Assembly (NCBI GenBank): GCA_009785545.1
Contig: WQWD01000002.1
Location: forward strand, 1-57,215
Length of the DNA stretch: 57,215 nt
DNA from: Treponema sp.
GTDB taxonomy: Bacteria; Spirochaetota; Spirochaetia; Treponematales; Breznakiellaceae
Reading direction: 5' to 3'
Part shown: piece by piece, positions 6,254-15,435 of the stretch
How the letters are laid out: every line of letters starts with the position of its first letter
Numbering within the stretch: the stretch's first letter is position 1
Notes under the pieces: model-generated
What the model was told of the DNA's origin: nothing
The model's database searches: none
What the model saw: only the letters and a program-made list of their open reading frames with translations
Made by a program: the position numbers and the translations under genes

Positions 6254-8289
6254 TGAACGCAGCGACCGCTCTTTTTACTAATCAAGTTTTTTCCGGCGAT
6301 ATCGATTTCCTTGTCGATCAAATCGGCAAAATAACGGACTCGCTGCACCATGAGCAGCCCAGCGAATTTATCGAGCGAGTGCGCTATCTAACAAGCGACC
6401 TCACGCCGTTTCCTGGCAAGTTTAGTTTTGAAAAGTTCCCATACTTTCGCGAAATCGTCGACTGCTTCAGCCCGCTTGACCCGACCTCTGAGGTCGTACT
6501 TATGAAGGGCGCTCAAATGGGCGCAACAACCGCCGTATTGGAAACGGTGCTGCTATACAACATCATGAGCGACCCCAAGGCGCAGATGTACGTCACCGCC
6601 GACGCAGGGCTTATGAAAACCTCGGTGCAGGTGCGCATCGAAAAAATGATAGACAACGCCGGAGCTCGCGACCTTATATTTTCGCAAAGCCGGAAAAAAA
6701 AAGGCAGCCGCAATACAGGCGACACCGCCATCGCTAAAGAATACCCGGGCGGGTACCTACATTGTTTCGGCGGCCGCAGTCCTGCACGCTTCCGTGGCAT
6801 ATCTTACCCATGCGCCCTTGCCGACGAGGTCGACGCATTTCCGGACTCAATCCCGAAAGAGGGAACGGTTACCGACCTCGTACGCAACCGAACCAAAGCG
6901 TACACAGGCAGCAAGCGCAAAATCTTGTGGACATCCACGCCACTGATAAAACAAACATCAAAAATCGACAAGCTCTACACCGACGGCGACCAGCGGAAAT
7001 ATTTTGTACCCTGTAAACATTGCGGCATGATGCAGGAGCTTGTGTGGCATGGCAAAAACGAGGACGGCTATACATGGGGAATAACATGGCAAAACGACGA
7101 GGACTTTAACCCGCTATTGGACACCGTCGGTTATAAATGCGAAAAACCTGACTGCGCCCAAATAATGAAAAACTACGACAAGGCGGTCATAATTTTACGC
7201 GGCGAGTGGCGAGCGTCGGTAAAGCCAATTGCGCCGAATCGCCGATCTTACCACGTAACGCCGATATACAACCCGCCAGGGATGTACTCATGGGAAGACA
7301 TGGTTCTGCAATGGGTGGAGTGCTGGGACTTAAAAACCAACCGCCTCAAAGACAAGGAAAAATACAGAGTTTTCCGCAACACCACGCAGGGACTTACGTT
7401 CGAGGAGCTCGGCGGCAAGCAAATCGAGTACGAGCGAGCGATACAATTCCGACGCACAGGCTTCGTTGTTGTCAACGATGAGTCCGGGCTTATCGCCCGT
7501 GGCGTACCGAACGATCTCGCCGTACAGGATTCAGGATCCCCGATTCTTATACTCGTGGCATCCGTTGATGTACAGAATGACTGTCTGTATGTCGATGTTA
7601 AAGGTTACAGCGCAGGCGGCGTGACTTGGACTCTGGAGTTTTTTGAAATCAAAGGAAACACTGCCGACTTTAACGGAGTGTGGGATAAACTCGATATTAT
7701 ACTCGGCGACAAGCGATATGTTGGCACAGACGGCAAAGTGTACCGCATCCAAATAACGATGATCGACTCCGGACACAACTCCGATTATGTTTACGAATAC
7801 GTCAAAAAGCGCTCCGGCGGCGTTTTTGCAATTAAAGGCAAAGACTACCTCCAAAATGGCGAAACATATCAATTTTTTAGCACATCGGCACAAGAAAAAA
7901 TCGGCTTTAGTAACGCCCTGCATATAAGCACAGGCAAGCTGAAAGACAGAATAAGTAACGCCATGACATCGTCGTTTTGGATTACGGGACAGTCACAGCC
8001 GGCTTGGTACCCCAACTTTAGAGAGGACAGCAGGGACGATTATTTTAAACAATTTGAGGCGGAGCGCCGTGAGGAAAAACGGGATGCAATTACAAAACAG
8101 TTCCGCGGCTATGTGTGGAAGCAAAAGTTCGGCCAAGACAACCATGCGCTTGACTGTTATGTGTACAACCTTGCGGCACTTGAGCTTGCCGCCGAGTTCT
8201 GGTGCAAAGAACGCCTTGGCTTACCGACGCTGGACTGGACGGCGTTTTGGGAGAGTGCCAAAAAAGGCGAGTTTTATCAGGAGCCATGA
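6253..8289 (+). CDS. Phage terminase large subunit, GpA family
   Basis: FPYFREIVDCFSP...LMKGAQMGATTAVLE ATPase region; nuclease region ASVDVQNDCLYVDV, ITMIDSGHNSDYVYEY, DNHALDCYVYNLAA. Confidence 0.93.
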   Translation: MNAATALFTNQVFSGDIDFLVDQIGKITDSLHHEQPSEFIERVRYLTSDLTPFPGKFSFEKFPYFREIVDCFSPLDPTSEVVLMKGAQMGATTAVLETVLLYNIMSDPKAQMYVTADAGLMKTSVQVRIEKMIDNAGARDLIFSQSRKKKGSRNTGDTAIAKEYPGGYLHCFGGRSPARFRGISYPCALADEVDAFPDSIPKEGTVTDLVRNRTKAYTGSKRKILWTSTPLIKQTSKIDKLYTDGDQRKYFVPCKHCGMMQELVWHGKNEDGYTWGITWQNDEDFNPLLDTVGYKCEKPDCAQIMKNYDKAVIILRGEWRASVKPIAPNRRSYHVTPIYNPPGMYSWEDMVLQWVECWDLKTNRLKDKEKYRVFRNTTQGLTFEELGGKQIEYERAIQFRRTGFVVVNDESGLIARGVPNDLAVQDSGSPILILVASVDVQNDCLYVDVKGYSAGGVTWTLEFFEIKGNTADFNGVWDKLDIILGDKRYVGTDGKVYRIQITMIDSGHNSDYVYEYVKKRSGGVFAIKGKDYLQNGETYQFFSTSAQEKIGFSNALHISTGKLKDRISNAMTSSFWITGQSQPAWYPNFREDSRDDYFKQFEAERREEKRDAITKQFRGYVWKQKFGQDNHALDCYVYNLAALELAAEFWCKERLGLPTLDWTAFWESAKKGEFYQEP

Positions 8290-8945: not shown

Positions 8946-9251
8946 ATGGCAATAATCGAGGATGGGCACCCCGTCTTGTCGGACAAAAACGTGGCTTGGG
9001 CTGACCTTATAAAACACAGTGAAATTATTATCTTTGAGCTCGATAAAGCTATCCTCGCACTTACGCGTGAAGGGCTCAAAGAATTTAGACTGACTACAGG
9101 GCAGACAACGCATAACGTCACACCTTTAGACCTTCCCGTTTTAATCCAGCGTCGAAAAGATCTGATAGACCAGATCGCACGCATGGAAGACCTAATCGCA
9201 AAAAAACACGCACCGCCTCCGGCTCTTGTGCAGGTGGTGCCAAAATGTTAA
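8946..9251 (+). CDS. gpW-like head-tail joining protein
   Basis: Small protein between terminase and portal; [26 protein letters not shown]. Confidence 0.55.
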
Positions 9252-10981
9252 GACACGGCATACCGAGCGAAAGCCCAAAACAACTCGACGACGTACTCGC
9301 ATATTTTACACGTAACGCTCTTAACGACGTATTCGACGGCGATACATTTACAAATTCTTTCGGCATTACGCGCAACTACTTATGGGAAAATGGTGTGGAT
9401 TATTACACCCTGCGCCATAGGTCGATCCAGCTCTATATAGAAAATCCCTATGTGTCCGGGCTCATTAACCGAATGCTCCGCAACGAGATTTTTACAGGCA
9501 TAGTGCCGGAAGCCACTCCGCTCGCATCGGTTATATGGCCAAATATGGACGTGCGCGAGCGCGAACGCTTGTCAACGAATTACTCTGAAAAAATGACAGA
9601 GGGATTTCGGCTTTATGCAAGCAACCCGGACGTTTTCGATTACCGCCGACAATTAACATTCGGCGAATTTCAAAACCAAGTGCGCCTTGAGTCCATGCTT
9701 TGCGGTGACGGAATTATAGTTGCGCACATAAATCAACAAACAAAGCTTCCTTCGTGGGACTGGATTAACGGTAATTATATAATGACCGACCCCGAATACA
9801 CGCCAGCAAAAGGACATAAAGTTATCAACGGCGTTGAACTGGATTCGCACGGCAGACATACAGCGTATCATATGCGTGAGTTCGACGGCGAAGAGATATC
9901 GTTTAAGCGAATCCCAACCGTCGGGCGTAAATCCGGCAGAACTATTGCATGGATGGTTTACGGATGCGATAAATTATTAAATAACGTGCGCGGCATTCCG
10001 CTGTTGGGAAATATCCTGTATATGCTAAAAGACCTCGACCGATACAAAAACGCCGAGCTTCGTGCCGCCGTAATTAATGCGCTTTTGCCGTTATTTATGA
10101 GTCGCGAAAAAAGCGACACCCCAATACGCAGAGTGACAGCCGGCATGGGCAGATTCGAACACGGAACGCCAGCTGCTGTCGAGGCGGAAAAAGAAGATGC
10201 CGAGGCACAAGCACGATCCGCACAACCTACTCGCCAGCTAGTGGCAGAAATGCACCCAGGGACTATCATAGAAAACCTGGCACCCGGGGAAAAACCAGTT
10301 AGCTTTGACACCCGCCGTCCTAACGTAAATTATGGCGAGTTCGAAAAAATAATCTTACGCGCCATCGCATGGTCAAGAGGTATCCCGCCGGAAACTTTGG
10401 TTATGGAATATTCGTCGAGCTATTCCGCAGGGCGGCAAGCAAACAATGAATTTAACATAAACCTCAAATATTTTGTTTTTAAGCACGCAAAAGACATCGG
10501 GCAAATTATATACGAGGAGTTTCAAATACAATCCGCACTGCTTGGCGAAATCGATCTGCCGGGCTTCCTTGTCTGCGCTTTCGACCCTGCACAATGGAAG
10601 CTCCGCGGTGCATGGCTCAAATGCGAGTGGTCTGGACTCTCGCGACCATCTGTTGATATTCAAAAAGAAGCAAATGCAATGCAAAAACTGCTCAAAATGG
10701 GCGTTATTACACACGACATGGTCGCGCGGCAATTTAGCGGCATGGATTTCCGCGCTGTGCAAAACAAACTTGAGATTGAGCGCACTCTTATGGCGAGTCA
10801 CGGATTTATTGCCGCCACCGAAATCGAAACAAATAACGTAAATGAAGATCAGGCAGAAACGCAAGAGCAGTTAATAGCAGCTATGCAGGACATAGATGAC
10901 TATATAGAAAAAGCAAGCCCCGAATTACAGGAGCTTTGGAATAATTACAAAAATTGCGTTGACGCAATTCAAAATAATTAA
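9245..10981 (+). CDS. Phage portal protein, lambda family
   Basis: Size and position; [58 protein letters not shown]. Confidence 0.9.
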
Positions 10982-10995
10982 TAGGAGATGGGAAA

Positions 10996-11349
10996 ATGGC
11001 AGAGCCTTACATTTACCAAATAGTACATCACGCACAAGATTTCACAGGATTTATTGTCGCCATTATAAGTATTGCTGTTACCCTAATGGGAACCATTATA
11101 GGTGGCATGATTTCATTAAGTAAAATGAGCTTTAACCTAGGTGTCTACAAAGGCACGGTTGATCAAAGACTGTCGGCGCAAGAGCGAAACATAAACGGCA
11201 TAGGAGAAAAAATTTCTGGATCGCGCAAAGAATTGCAAGATGCAATGAATGAATTTTCTTCAGAAATTAAAACAGTATTAGTAACTGTAGCACGGGTCGA
11301 GGAGGCTGTAGAAAATATAAAAGAAAGGTTTGATAGGGAGAGAAAATGA
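10996..11349 (+). CDS. Membrane/coiled-coil protein, possible lysis or holin accessory
   Basis: One N-terminal TM segment followed by a coiled coil; start of a membrane-protein cluster before the amidase. Confidence 0.45.
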   Translation: MAEPYIYQIVHHAQDFTGFIVAIISIAVTLMGTIIGGMISLSKMSFNLGVYKGTVDQRLSAQERNINGIGEKISGSRKELQDAMNEFSSEIKTVLVTVARVEEAVENIKERFDRERK

Positions 11350-11660
11350 AAAGAGTTGTTACAAAAGAAGAGTGGAAAGAATTAAGTATTGATCAAAGAA
11401 CAGAACTAGTTGACGGCGGATATGTTTTCTCTGTTCCTGTTTTTTTTACAAGGGCTGCCAAGAGGATACAAAAAATTTGCATAACAAGGGAATTTATAGT
11501 TTTTATAATTTTTACTTCTATGCTTTTCCGAAACGGAAGTGTTGATCTGCTTTTATACACAATTGTTTCCGGTATGTTTATTTTTGTCGAGGCATTAAAA
11601 ATAATGCTGTCCAAAAATACAACCGTAAACCTGGACGGCAGCGCAAGGATAGGCAGATGA
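11346..11660 (+). CDS. Small two-TM membrane protein, candidate holin
   Basis: Two hydrophobic segments (EFIVFIIFTSMLF; LLLYTIVSGMFIFVEAL); adjacent to endolysin. Confidence 0.45.
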   Translation: MKRVVTKEEWKELSIDQRTELVDGGYVFSVPVFFTRAAKRIQKICITREFIVFIIFTSMLFRNGSVDLLLYTIVSGMFIFVEALKIMLSKNTTVNLDGSARIGR

Positions 11661-12109
11661 AATTATTACGTGCATGGACATGGGAAATACTGCAGACTCT
11701 CGCAGCAATGATTGCACTATTATTAATCGGCAAGGGAATAGAACAGCGAGCTTGGTATAAAGGGCACAGAATTATAATTTTTAATCGTAATTACAACTGG
11801 TTTACAAAAATATTTGCAAGCTGCGCCTTGGGCTATTTTATATTTTTACCCACAGGTACAAGCATCATAACGTTGGTGCACGAATACGGGCATTGCAAGC
11901 AAAGCGCAAGGCTCGGCCCATTATATTTATTTTTTATTGGCATTCCGTCAATAACACGCCATTTAATAGCACGCCATTGGCGAAAAACAGAAAAAAAGAA
12001 TAACGACGAAATTGTTGTCTGGTATTATTCGGCGTTCCCGGAAAAACAGGCGGATATATTAGGCGGCGTTATTTGGGAAAACGGAAAGAGGGTATTAGAA
12101 ATTGATTAG
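11657..12109 (+). CDS. Membrane protein with HEYGH metallopeptidase-like motif
   Basis: Two TM segments and SIITLVHEYGHCKQSARLGPLYLFFIGIPS. Confidence 0.6.
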   Translation: MKLLRAWTWEILQTLAAMIALLLIGKGIEQRAWYKGHRIIIFNRNYNWFTKIFASCALGYFIFLPTGTSIITLVHEYGHCKQSARLGPLYLFFIGIPSITRHLIARHWRKTEKKNNDEIVVWYYSAFPEKQADILGGVIWENGKRVLEID

Positions 12110-12188
12110 GCAAAATTTGTGCGGTTTAATAAATTATTTAATCAGAGCATTTAACAAAATGCTAAAAAATAACCAAGGAGAGACAACC

Positions 12189-12743
12189 ATGAGTAAAAAA
12201 ATCGCTTTATCAAGCGGGCACGGATTAATCATTCGCGGCGCTAGAGGCATCATGGACGAAGTTGACGAGGCTAGGAGAATTACCGACAGAGTTGCTGAAA
12301 TTTTAATAAAAAAAGGCGCAACAGCCGCCGTATTTCACGATAACGAAAGTGGAAACGTAAACTCAAACCTTAATGCGATTGTCAACTGGCATCGCCAGCA
12401 GGATGCAGAAGCTGATGTATCGGTACACTTTAACGCTTTCGGAAATCCAGATGCGCACGGCACAGAAGTTCTCTGTCACACCGATGGCGTTAATACAGCT
12501 CTAGCAAACCGCATCGCAGCTGCAATGGCAACCTCCGGGGAATTCAGGCTGCGCCCGGCGCAAGGCGGAGCGACTATGCAGGGCGTTGCATTACGCAACA
12601 ATCTTTTTGTTATAAACCAACTCCGAAGTAGACCGTGCGTTTTATTAGAAGTTTGCTTTGTAACATCGCCTGCGGATGTAAGCCGATATCAAAAAAACTT
12701 TGATGCTATCTGCGAAGCAATCGCAGACGCATTACTGGCATAG
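12189..12743 (+). CDS. N-acetylmuramoyl-L-alanine amidase (Amidase_3), endolysin
   Basis: IALSSGHG...DEVDEARRITDRVAEILIKKGA...DVSVHFNAF...LLEVCFVTSPADV; RBS AAGGAG before ATG 12189. Confidence 0.9.
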   Translation: MSKKIALSSGHGLIIRGARGIMDEVDEARRITDRVAEILIKKGATAAVFHDNESGNVNSNLNAIVNWHRQQDAEADVSVHFNAFGNPDAHGTEVLCHTDGVNTALANRIAAAMATSGEFRLRPAQGGATMQGVALRNNLFVINQLRSRPCVLLEVCFVTSPADVSRYQKNFDAICEAIADALLA

Positions 12744-12751
12744 GGGGAGCG

Positions 12752-13201
12752 ATGAATGAAAAAACAAAGTTTATTATTTATTTTTTTGCTACCGTTACCC
12801 TTATTTTTATTATCGGCATCTTCTCTGGATGTCGAGGAGCTCCGTCTCCGCGAATCGAATATCTGGTCGAGGCTAGAATCGTCAATGCTGTCAACGCAGA
12901 GCGAGCTAGATGGCTTGAGGAACACAATCGCAATCTTGCAATACGAATCGCAGAGGGACTTAGCGAAGCAGACGCAAGAGTTAGCGCTGCGGACGGAGAG
13001 CTACAACAGGTTATCGCTGCTGCTAGAGAATACAGAGCTCTCTTTTTATCAGTCATTGACTACCTTTTATCGTACCGAAGCTGCGAACCGTCTATTGAAA
13101 CGGATATTGAAAATAATTGCGGCGGCAGCGACTGTGCTAGTGATATTCAAAATTTTACGGACGGTGAGCTACGTGCAATTGACAGTCAAGACAGGCAATA
13201 A
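12752..13201 (+). CDS. Putative o-spanin-like lipoprotein (fully overlaps next ORF)
   Basis: N-terminal hydrophobic segment with lipobox IGIFSGC, then coiled coil; ATG 4 nt upstream of the second ORF's ATG. Confidence 0.55.
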   Translation: MNEKTKFIIYFFATVTLIFIIGIFSGCRGAPSPRIEYLVEARIVNAVNAERARWLEEHNRNLAIRIAEGLSEADARVSAADGELQQVIAAAREYRALFLSVIDYLLSYRSCEPSIETDIENNCGGSDCASDIQNFTDGELRAIDSQDRQ

Positions 13202-13238
13202 AATCAGCGCTAAGCGAATCTTATGTATATGGTTTTAG
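12756..13238 (+). CDS. Putative i-spanin-like protein, coiled coil plus C-terminal TM (overlaps previous ORF)
   Basis: MKKQSLLFIFLLPLPLFLLSASS signal/TM, coiled coil, then ILKIIAAAATVLVIFKIL TM; +1 frame relative to 12752 ORF. Confidence 0.6.
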   Translation: MKKQSLLFIFLLPLPLFLLSASSLDVEELRLRESNIWSRLESSMLSTQSELDGLRNTIAILQYESQRDLAKQTQELALRTESYNRLSLLLENTELSFYQSLTTFYRTEAANRLLKRILKIIAAAATVLVIFKILRTVSYVQLTVKTGNKISAKRILCIWF

Positions 13239-13282
13239 GAGGTCTTTGTGAGAGATACAGCTCTTTGTCGTTCATATTTTTT

Positions 13283-13684
13283 TCATAACGCTATGCTCAA
13301 TTCCTGCCCGTATACACGCGCTATTTTTTCCAACGTCTTTACAGTTGGGTTTGCTTTCCGAGGGTTTTCGAGGCGCTGATACGCTTGGTAAGACAGGCCG
13401 AGTTTCTGGGCTATGTCCGTTTGGCTTTGCCCACCCCGTAGTTCACGGAGCCTCAAAGAAATGGTTATGTGGCTTGCGACAGATATTGGATAACCTTTTT
13501 TGTATGCTGGCGGACGGATCGACATCCCTTTGGAAATCTCGACTTCAAGGATTGCTTCTAGCGCTTCTTTTGCCATTTCAAGGGCGTGATCGTGAGAGAC
13601 CCCATAAGTTAGAACATTCGGCATGTCGGGGAAATCCACTAAAAATATATCCCCGTTTTTCTTTATATTGCAATTATAAACCAT
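13283..13684 (-). CDS. hicB: HicB antitoxin with C-terminal HTH
   Basis: DIFLVDFPDMPNVLTYGVSHDHALEMAKEALEAIL plus XRE-type HTH (TDIAQKLGLSYQAYQRLENP). Confidence 0.9.
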   Translation of the reverse strand: MVYNCNIKKNGDIFLVDFPDMPNVLTYGVSHDHALEMAKEALEAILEVEISKGMSIRPPAYKKGYPISVASHITISLRLRELRGGQSQTDIAQKLGLSYQAYQRLENPRKANPTVKTLEKIARVYGQELSIAL

Positions 13685-13695
13685 CTGGAAACCTC

Positions 13696-13893
13696 CTAGC
13701 CCTTAATTCCGGCTTGTTTGAGTATGCGTTTTCCCAAGATACCCAAGTCTTGATTGCCGTGAAATGGAACAGTTACAGGACGGCATTCAGACTTGTCAAA
13801 AACATGGTGAGAGCCACTGACCCTCACAAGTTCCCAACCATTATCTTTAAGGATTTTCATAATCTCTTTTGCCGTCATAATCATAACATACAA
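13696..13893 (-). CDS. hicA: HicA mRNA interferase toxin
   Basis: TAKEIMKILKDNGWELVRVSGSHHVFDK...TVPFHGNQDLGILGKRILKQAGI. Confidence 0.92.
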   Translation of the reverse strand: MYVMIMTAKEIMKILKDNGWELVRVSGSHHVFDKSECRPVTVPFHGNQDLGILGKRILKQAGIKG

Positions 13894-13949
13894 TATTTAT
13901 ATTGTAATGTCAAGAGGTTATTATCAAGTTTTTACAGGAAAGTTAGCGG

Positions 13950-14192
13950 TTACTTCTTGGGCTTCTTATCTGGTTCTGGCTCAGAGGCCTTGCGGGGATG
14001 GTCTGGTTTTGGAACAGCCCTTAAAATATCCAATACTTCAGGCGCATATATCGCCTCTTTGGTCAGAGGCTTAATGCCTAGCCTTGTAAATCTCTGGCGA
14101 AGGGTATTAACTGGAACGTCAAGTTTTTCTGATATTTCTGAAAGCGTCAATCCTGTCATCTCCTTCTGCCCGATCTGCACCAAGACGGGCAT
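13950..14192 (-). CDS. Small HTH protein
   Basis: TLSEISEKLDVPVNTLRQRFTRLGIKPLTKEAIYAPEVLDILRAV; likely start at internal ATG 14192. Confidence 0.55.
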   Translation of the reverse strand: MPVLVQIGQKEMTGLTLSEISEKLDVPVNTLRQRFTRLGIKPLTKEAIYAPEVLDILRAVPKPDHPRKASEPEPDKKPKK

Positions 14193-14286
14193 ATTACTGG
14201 CAAACAGTACGAGGAGTTGATGTTTAACGACCAAGGCGAAAAAAATGAAAAAATTATGAAAGTTAATAGCTTTAAAAACACCAAGG

Positions 14287-15435
14287 ATGAACAATGACCT
14301 TATGAAGACCGTTTTAATCGACGACAAGATAGGTTATAACTGGTGGGACGGATCTGGTGTAACCGCCAAAAAACTCAAACAACAACTCGACGGCATACTT
14401 GACGGAGAGGAAATAAACATCGTAATAAACTCCCCGGGCGGATCGGTTTATGAGGGTGCGGTGATTTTTAACCTTATTAGAGATTACGCAAAATCGCATC
14501 CTGTGTCCGTTAGAATAAACTGTCTCGCCATGAGTATGGCTTCTTACATTGCGCTCGCCGCACGCACTGTAAACAAAGACTCTAAAATCACAGTGTGCGA
14601 CAATTCTATTTTTATGATTCACAATCCGTGGATGTATACATGGGGCGATTACCGCGAATTAAAAAAAGACTCCGACTACCTCGAAAAACTAGCAGCAATG
14701 TACGGCTCTGTTCATTGTATTACTTCCGGCAAATCAGAAAAAGACATTCGCAAGGCAATGGACGAAGAGACTTTTTACGTCGGCAAAGAAATAATCGACG
14801 CTGGTTTTGCCAACGAATACGAAGCCTTTAGCAACGATGACGACGGTATAGCAGCCAGCGCAGGCGAAATAACACCTAACACCCTCGACAGGGACACCCT
14901 TGTCCGTAACGCAAAAACAGCGGCTAACGAAGCGATGGAAGCCGCACGCGCTGCTGGACAAAAAGACGGCAAAGCATACAGAGGCGACCTTGAAAAAGCG
15001 GTTGCATTTTACCAAGTGACCACACCGCCCGCAGCGGCAGGCGGAGAAATAATAACATCTGGTGGAGGAGGCAATATGAAACCAGAAGAATTGCTTGCAA
15101 AGAATAAGGATTGCTATGACGCTGTCTTTGCTCTTGGCGAAAAAGCCGCGCTGGAAAAAGAGCGGGCAAGAGTACAAGCCCATATTATGCTTGGCAAGGA
15201 GGCGGGAGCGTTAGATACCGCCGTTAAATACATCGAAGGCGGCGAGTCTAGCATGGACGAAAAAATCCGAGCCGAATACCTCGCACTTTCGATGAAAAAA
15301 AGCCGACTGGAAGCGCGAAACGACGACGATGTTGGCGACACTAACCTCGGCGGTGACGGAAAAGCTGATGGCAAAGCGTTGGCAGATGCTTTCCGTGCTG
15401 GCGTTCGTGGCAAGATGATCGGAGGCACGGAATGA
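14287..15435 (+). CDS. ClpP-like prohead (head maturation) protease
   Basis: INIVINSPGGSVYEGAVIFNLIRDY...CLAMSMASYIALAA...IFMIHNPW. Confidence 0.92.
   Translation: MNNDLMKTVLIDDKIGYNWWDGSGVTAKKLKQQLDGILDGEEINIVINSPGGSVYEGAVIFNLIRDYAKSHPVSVRINCLAMSMASYIALAARTVNKDSKITVCDNSIFMIHNPWMYTWGDYRELKKDSDYLEKLAAMYGSVHCITSGKSEKDIRKAMDEETFYVGKEIIDAGFANEYEAFSNDDDGIAASAGEITPNTLDRDTLVRNAKTAANEAMEAARAAGQKDGKAYRGDLEKAVAFYQVTTPPAAAGGEIITSGGGGNMKPEELLAKNKDCYDAVFALGEKAALEKERARVQAHIMLGKEAGALDTAVKYIEGGESSMDEKIRAEYLALSMKKSRLEARNDDDVGDTNLGGDGKADGKALADAFRAGVRGKMIGGTE

Follow-up and report, generated by a model that had tools for sequence, protein, structure and literature searches.

In a Treponema prophage we identified two genes that are read in different frames from almost the same stretch of DNA, and we show that both are coding and conserved. 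The pair, here called A and B, lies in the window, by which we mean the whole 57,215-nucleotide stretch that was analysed. It likely encodes a two-component spanin (probability roughly 0.8), a device that acts at the final stage of phage lysis by disrupting the host's outer membrane, with A as the o-spanin and B as an i-spanin of reversed, N-out and C-in topology; the function, localisation and topology are inferred. The start region and the two open reading frames are as follows.

12744-12749, plus strand: ribosome-binding site GGGGAG, common to A and B and 5' of both starts, called from the sequence
12752-12758, plus strand: double start ATGAATG, with the A start before the B start and 4 nt between them (sequence ATGAATGA)
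12752-13201, plus strand: ORF A, predicted o-spanin, 149 codons, with its stop ending at 13201
12756-13238, plus strand: ORF B, predicted i-spanin of reversed topology, 160 codons, with its stop ending at 13238

The frame of B is +1 relative to that of A, and the two share 446 nt (12756-13201), A starting 4 nt before B and ending 37 nt before it. A sequence-only reading of this region had proposed starts at 12752 and 12756 in different frames, 149 and 160 codons and about 446 shared nucleotides, all of which held. Its proposals of one ribosome-binding site for both starts (GGGGAG) and of a position after an endolysin (the Amidase_3 gene at 12189-12743) also held. Its label of an embedded pair failed, because nearly all, but not all, of A lies inside B and the criterion of an o-spanin gene wholly within the i-spanin gene is unmet. 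Since the genes overlap from their start codons with A first, "embedded" is not quite the right class.

We evaluated whether both frames are coding by means of codon-shuffle controls. When the synonymous codons of B were shuffled, an A frame as long as the observed one arose in 0.1% of trials, and when the codons of B were redrawn from phage usage it arose in 0.02%; the reverse test, in which A was kept and the length of the B frame was scored, gave 0.45% (shuffled) and 0.005% (redrawn). As this result alone was only moderate, relatives were sought. A protein search of 40 genomes of the same genus recovered one pair, in a second Treponema prophage, with both frames open, about 30% protein identity, an ATGNATG start that keeps the 4-nt spacing, and a different neighbouring endolysin. 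Profiles built from B only then revealed relatives across many genomes of the Treponema family, as well as in a few outside it, and the final set comprised 80 loci with full-length B found by these profiles. The A frame was uninterrupted over at least 95 codons in 78 of these 80 loci, whereas in the third sense frame the median number of stops was 12.5 and the longest run had a median of 36.5. The two exceptions were L007, a decaying copy in which B is kept, A carries several stops and no endolysin adjoins, and L069.

Conservation of each protein also exceeded what its partner frame forces, in the window pair as elsewhere. Against a null in which B was kept and its codons were shuffled, A-protein similarity reached z values of 3.3-9.1 across 25 locus pairs, with the third-frame z below the A-frame z in all 25; for the window these values were 3.9 versus -0.3 (with L003) and 3.9 versus -0.2 (with L008). 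The reciprocal test of B similarity with A kept yielded z values of 4.0-10.1. Over 33 spread loci, permutation p values combined by Fisher's method came to about 8e-30 in the A frame, against 0.96 in the third; this combination ignores the kinship of the loci and overstates their independence, so that the evidence is at most this strong. Collectively, these results show that A and B are both real genes. Conservation of only one frame had been set beforehand as the outcome that would refute the pair; this was run and not met, given that both frames are open in 78 of 80 loci and are conserved beyond the constraint of the partner.

A first rival explanation, in which B is the sole gene and its composition incidentally generates the A frame, is all but excluded. 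In its favour, out-of-frame stops are rarer in helices rich in alanine, serine and glutamate, the open A frame alone was not significant in three loci (L047, L096 and L045), and L007 retains B with stops in A. However, A is kept in 78 of 80 loci, its similarity is above the codon-shuffle null in every tested pair while the third frame lags, lipoboxes recur in A, and the spacing of the A and B starts is near-constant. The codon-shuffle and third-frame controls rule out an A frame that is merely a composition artefact.

The start arrangement is likewise recurrent among the homologues. The A start codon is ATG, TTG or GTG, usually in the pattern ATG/TTG/GTG-N-ATG. The offset between the A and B starts was -4 in 41/78 loci and no more than 5 nt in 60/78, counts that are approximate because starts were picked by a rule favouring close starts. 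A Shine-Dalgarno-like motif of at least 4 bases was observed in 58/78, and the start-choosing rule used there also favours such motifs. At one locus (L072, about 1455-1499, 5' of A) the ribosome-binding region consists of a short tandem repeat, gaggaggaacc, in about four copies.

The predicted protein features of the pair were assigned by sequence rules.

12821-12832, plus strand: lipobox FSGC of A, residues 24-27 (C27), by sequence rule
12756-12824, plus strand: putative signal peptide of B (MKKQSLLFIFLLPLPLFLLSASS), expected to be cleaved on the basis of sequence alone, without a predictor
13104-13157, plus strand: C-terminal TM of B (ILKIIAAAATVLVIFKIL), by sequence rule, followed by a basic tail of 26 residues

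A begins with a short basic start and a hydrophobic stretch, after which comes the lipobox with a polar mature start. By a simple rule the same combination was found in 23 of 77 A proteins, namely the window and 22 other loci. Roughly two in three members of the wider family have no clean lipobox in A; these are mostly chromosomal copies, whose A resembles an N-terminal TM. From 38 aligned family members, AlphaFold2 modelled A as two helices after the signal (mean pLDDT 77.7). Because FSGC is followed by a polar mature start and the gene comes after an Amidase_3 endolysin, A would meet the criterion of an outer-membrane lipoprotein in a lysis cassette; this is inferred from the sequence, and there are no localisation data.

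For B, the C-terminal hydrophobic segment was seen in 62 of 63 homologues, and signal-peptidase-I-like sites recur among them (VYC/QD, AFS/QD, ALC/AD) in the pattern S/A-x-S/C before QD or LD. With 38 aligned family members as input, AlphaFold2 modelled the window B as one 134-residue helix with a mean pLDDT of 90.5. The signal peptide, continuous helix and C-terminal anchor suggest an inner-membrane partner with a periplasmic domain, which is inferred from sequence alone and from the predicted model, without coiled-coil or topology data. By the same kind of inference, B would not meet the criterion of an i-spanin with an N-terminal TMD (type II), because its N-terminus is signal-like and cleavable and its lasting hydrophobic anchor is C-terminal.

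A rival view of B is that its N-terminal stretch is uncleaved, which would make B a hairpin whose two ends are cytoplasmic, still a spanin but not type I. This is supported by the fact that the cleavage call rests on judgement by eye and that the N-terminus is helical, with low confidence, in the AlphaFold2 model; the recurrence of signal-peptidase-I-like sites among B homologues speaks against it, and we regard it as unlikely. The sequence-only reading had described a lipobox after a hydrophobic N-terminus in A, which held (FSGC, C27), and a signal-like start with an unusual C-terminal TM in B, which held by sequence rules; the assignments of lipobox and o-spanin to A, and of signal, helix and C-terminal TM to B, hold in the window and in 22 related loci. 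The coiled coils it described in both proteins correspond to modelled helices, two in A and one in B, with no coiled-coil measurement.

The favoured reading, a spanin pair with a cleaved, type I B, draws further support from the genomic position. The window is a Treponema-type prophage with a GpA-type terminase, a lambda-type portal and a major capsid E protein, and its nearest named relative is a contig of a Treponema MAG. The pair follows the lysis-cassette genes listed here.

10996-11349, plus strand: small membrane protein with an N-terminal TM and a helical tail, the start of the cassette; weak PHROG matches only
11346-11660, plus strand: candidate holin, 104 aa, hydrophobic, inferred from its position; no family match in Pfam or PHROG
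12189-12743, plus strand: endolysin, N-acetylmuramoyl-L-alanine amidase (Amidase_3; Pfam E 1.8e-21, PHROG endolysin E 3e-41)

Directly before the endolysin, 11657-12109 encodes a 150-aa membrane protein with a metalloprotease-like HEYGH motif and no family match. Within 9245-15435, the lysis cassette and a HicA/HicB-like pair (13283-13893, minus strand) are located between the portal and head protease genes, an unusual place.

In phage-like loci the gene directly 5' of the pair encodes a hydrolase: Amidase_3 in the window, a CHAP hydrolase in L003, L084 and L095, a C39-like peptidase in L009, L008, L027, L047 and L075, YkuD in L015, L081 and L089, Amidase_2 in L083 and a pesticin-type lysozyme in L091, while in L097 an M15 peptidase lies downstream rather than upstream. 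The CHAP match of L003 and the YkuD match of L015 were below the Pfam cut-off, and sequence inspection without Pfam placed a hydrolase next to the pair in L108-L111, L117, L119 and L126 as well. Seven unrelated hydrolase families beside one pair are what a lysis cassette predicts, and the lysis-cassette position of the pair recurs with them. In L047, L076 and L091 a Mu Gp27 gene lies 3' of the pair.

In the proposed mechanism, a single ribosome-binding site would feed two start codons 4 nt apart. A would be exported, lipidated at C27 and delivered to the outer membrane as the o-spanin, and B would be exported via its signal peptide, with the C-terminal TM fixing it in the inner membrane and its N-terminus left periplasmic (type I). 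The periplasmic helices of A and B would contact each other across the periplasm, and once the upstream amidase had removed the peptidoglycan, the A-B complex would collapse and join or break the two membranes. Localisation, topology, the A-B interaction and membrane disruption are inferred from sequence features and the position in the cassette; the earlier proposal of a spanin pair is supported, and spanin action itself is not shown.

As in lambda Rz/Rz1, an out-of-frame overlapping pair follows the endolysin and combines a predicted outer-membrane lipoprotein with a predicted inner-membrane helical protein. However, Rz has an N-terminal TMD whereas the predicted membrane anchor of B is C-terminal, and the small Rz1 gene has its start far within Rz whereas A nearly matches B in length and its start precedes that of B by 4 nt. 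Embedded pairs typically have their o-spanin start at a point 0.4-0.5 along the i-spanin gene (PMC6139136). The earlier claim of an overlap more extreme than that of lambda held as a start-to-start overlap, unlike Rz/Rz1. The unimolecular spanin T1 gp11 has a C-terminal inner-membrane TM, as is predicted for B, but carries its lipobox in the same polypeptide, whereas here the lipobox is in A and the TM in B, so that the criterion of a lipobox and a C-terminal TM in one polypeptide is unmet. A type I (N-out, C-in) i-spanin was named as possible by Kongari et al. 2018 (PMC6139136, section 15), who gave no example and whose survey search criteria left type I out; the predicted topology of B matches it. 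The pairs of L047, L076 and L091, near a hydrolase and the Mu Gp27 gene, resemble Mu-like lysis regions, although the head genes of the window are not Mu-like.

Several points weaken the spanin reading. The i-spanins known so far have an N-terminal TMD, a clean A lipobox is present in only 23/77, and many orphan chromosomal relatives have no lysis neighbours. PHROG and Pfam profiles matched the window proteins to no known spanin family or any other family; among 38 A homologues one gave a weak match to the Rz-like phrog_456 (9e-5). A Foldseek search of B against the PDB returned no match, B being a lone helix, and tblastn in annotated phages yielded nothing meaningful. When viral contigs were scanned with A alignments, the sole returns were the contig of the window phage itself and IMGVR_UViG_3300002450_000010, which is the already known L009; the L008 B protein as query returned no hit. 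Weak phylum-wide matches of B in long ORFs (e.g. L129 and L132) were rejected as coiled-coil chance matches, as those ORFs have no A frame. The open-access literature, subscription papers being outside the scope, contained no account that we could find of spirochete phages with a pair of this kind.

These points bear on a further rival, in which A and B are real but form an inner-membrane complex with another envelope role, for example in holin regulation or stress. In its favour, many relatives have an A that resembles an N-terminal TM anchor and lacks a clean lipobox, and dozens of copies are situated in host chromosomes with no phage genes nearby. Against it, A has a lipobox and a polar mature start in the window and 22 other loci, phage copies adjoin hydrolases of seven families in the standard spanin slot, and a Mu Gp27-type gene follows the pair in three loci, as a Mu-like lysis region predicts. 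We consider this alternative unlikely and retain the two-component spanin as the preferred reading.

By sequence inspection rather than Pfam, many relatives stand alone in host chromosomes beside infC, groEL, transporter or surface-protein genes. Dozens of such pairs (L041-L074, L077-L080, L082, L133-L136) mostly have a TTGNATG start and a TM-like A, and in some cases several copies or fragments occur in one genome. When copies at unrelated sites are compared, DNA similarity ends near the ribosome-binding site and the B stop (L061 versus L072, L041 versus L048, L053 versus L067, L008 versus L007). These sharp ends suggested mobility of the chromosomal copies, but we do not claim it, because slower evolution of doubly constrained DNA than of its flanks would explain them equally well.

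One family member, in a 1,139,633-bp genome, is Treponema pallidum TP0222, as published TP0222 primers match it exactly (PMC10013896).

L127, also L137:7623-8066 and G213:C1:228131-228553: TP0222 locus; 7623-8066 is B, with the A frame from about 7625

The overlapping A frame of TP0222 is unannotated, has 123 codons and begins with a GTG 2 nt after the ATG of B. It is similar to the A frames found elsewhere in the family (E 1e-8 to 5e-6) and is conserved beyond B with z values of 3.5-4.3, against 0.6-3.5 for the third frame, a smaller margin. A VanY-type gene is directly upstream of the pair (E 9e-40). Many chromosomal relatives, TP0222 included, have no phage genes around them and no clear lipobox in A, and it is mainly these copies, which may be domesticated or decaying, that call for caution about a pure lysis role. 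A bolder reading, which we advance only as a possibility, is that of an ancient dual-coded spanin-like gene common to Treponema, serving phage lysis and also present as domesticated host copies, including TP0222, in which an unannotated overlapping gene may have an envelope function of the cell's own.

In summary, the pair is a concrete candidate for a reversed (type I) i-spanin, outside the survey of Kongari et al. 2018. It is also a candidate for a spanin architecture with neighbouring start codons, from which overlapping frames encode two proteins of nearly the same length. Dozens of other phages and chromosomes of Treponema preserve the layout, and its approximately 80 diverged copies offer a natural system for how one DNA stretch suits two helical proteins and a way to study how two starts are served by ribosomes from a common binding site. 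The family also points to an overlooked ORF in T. pallidum.
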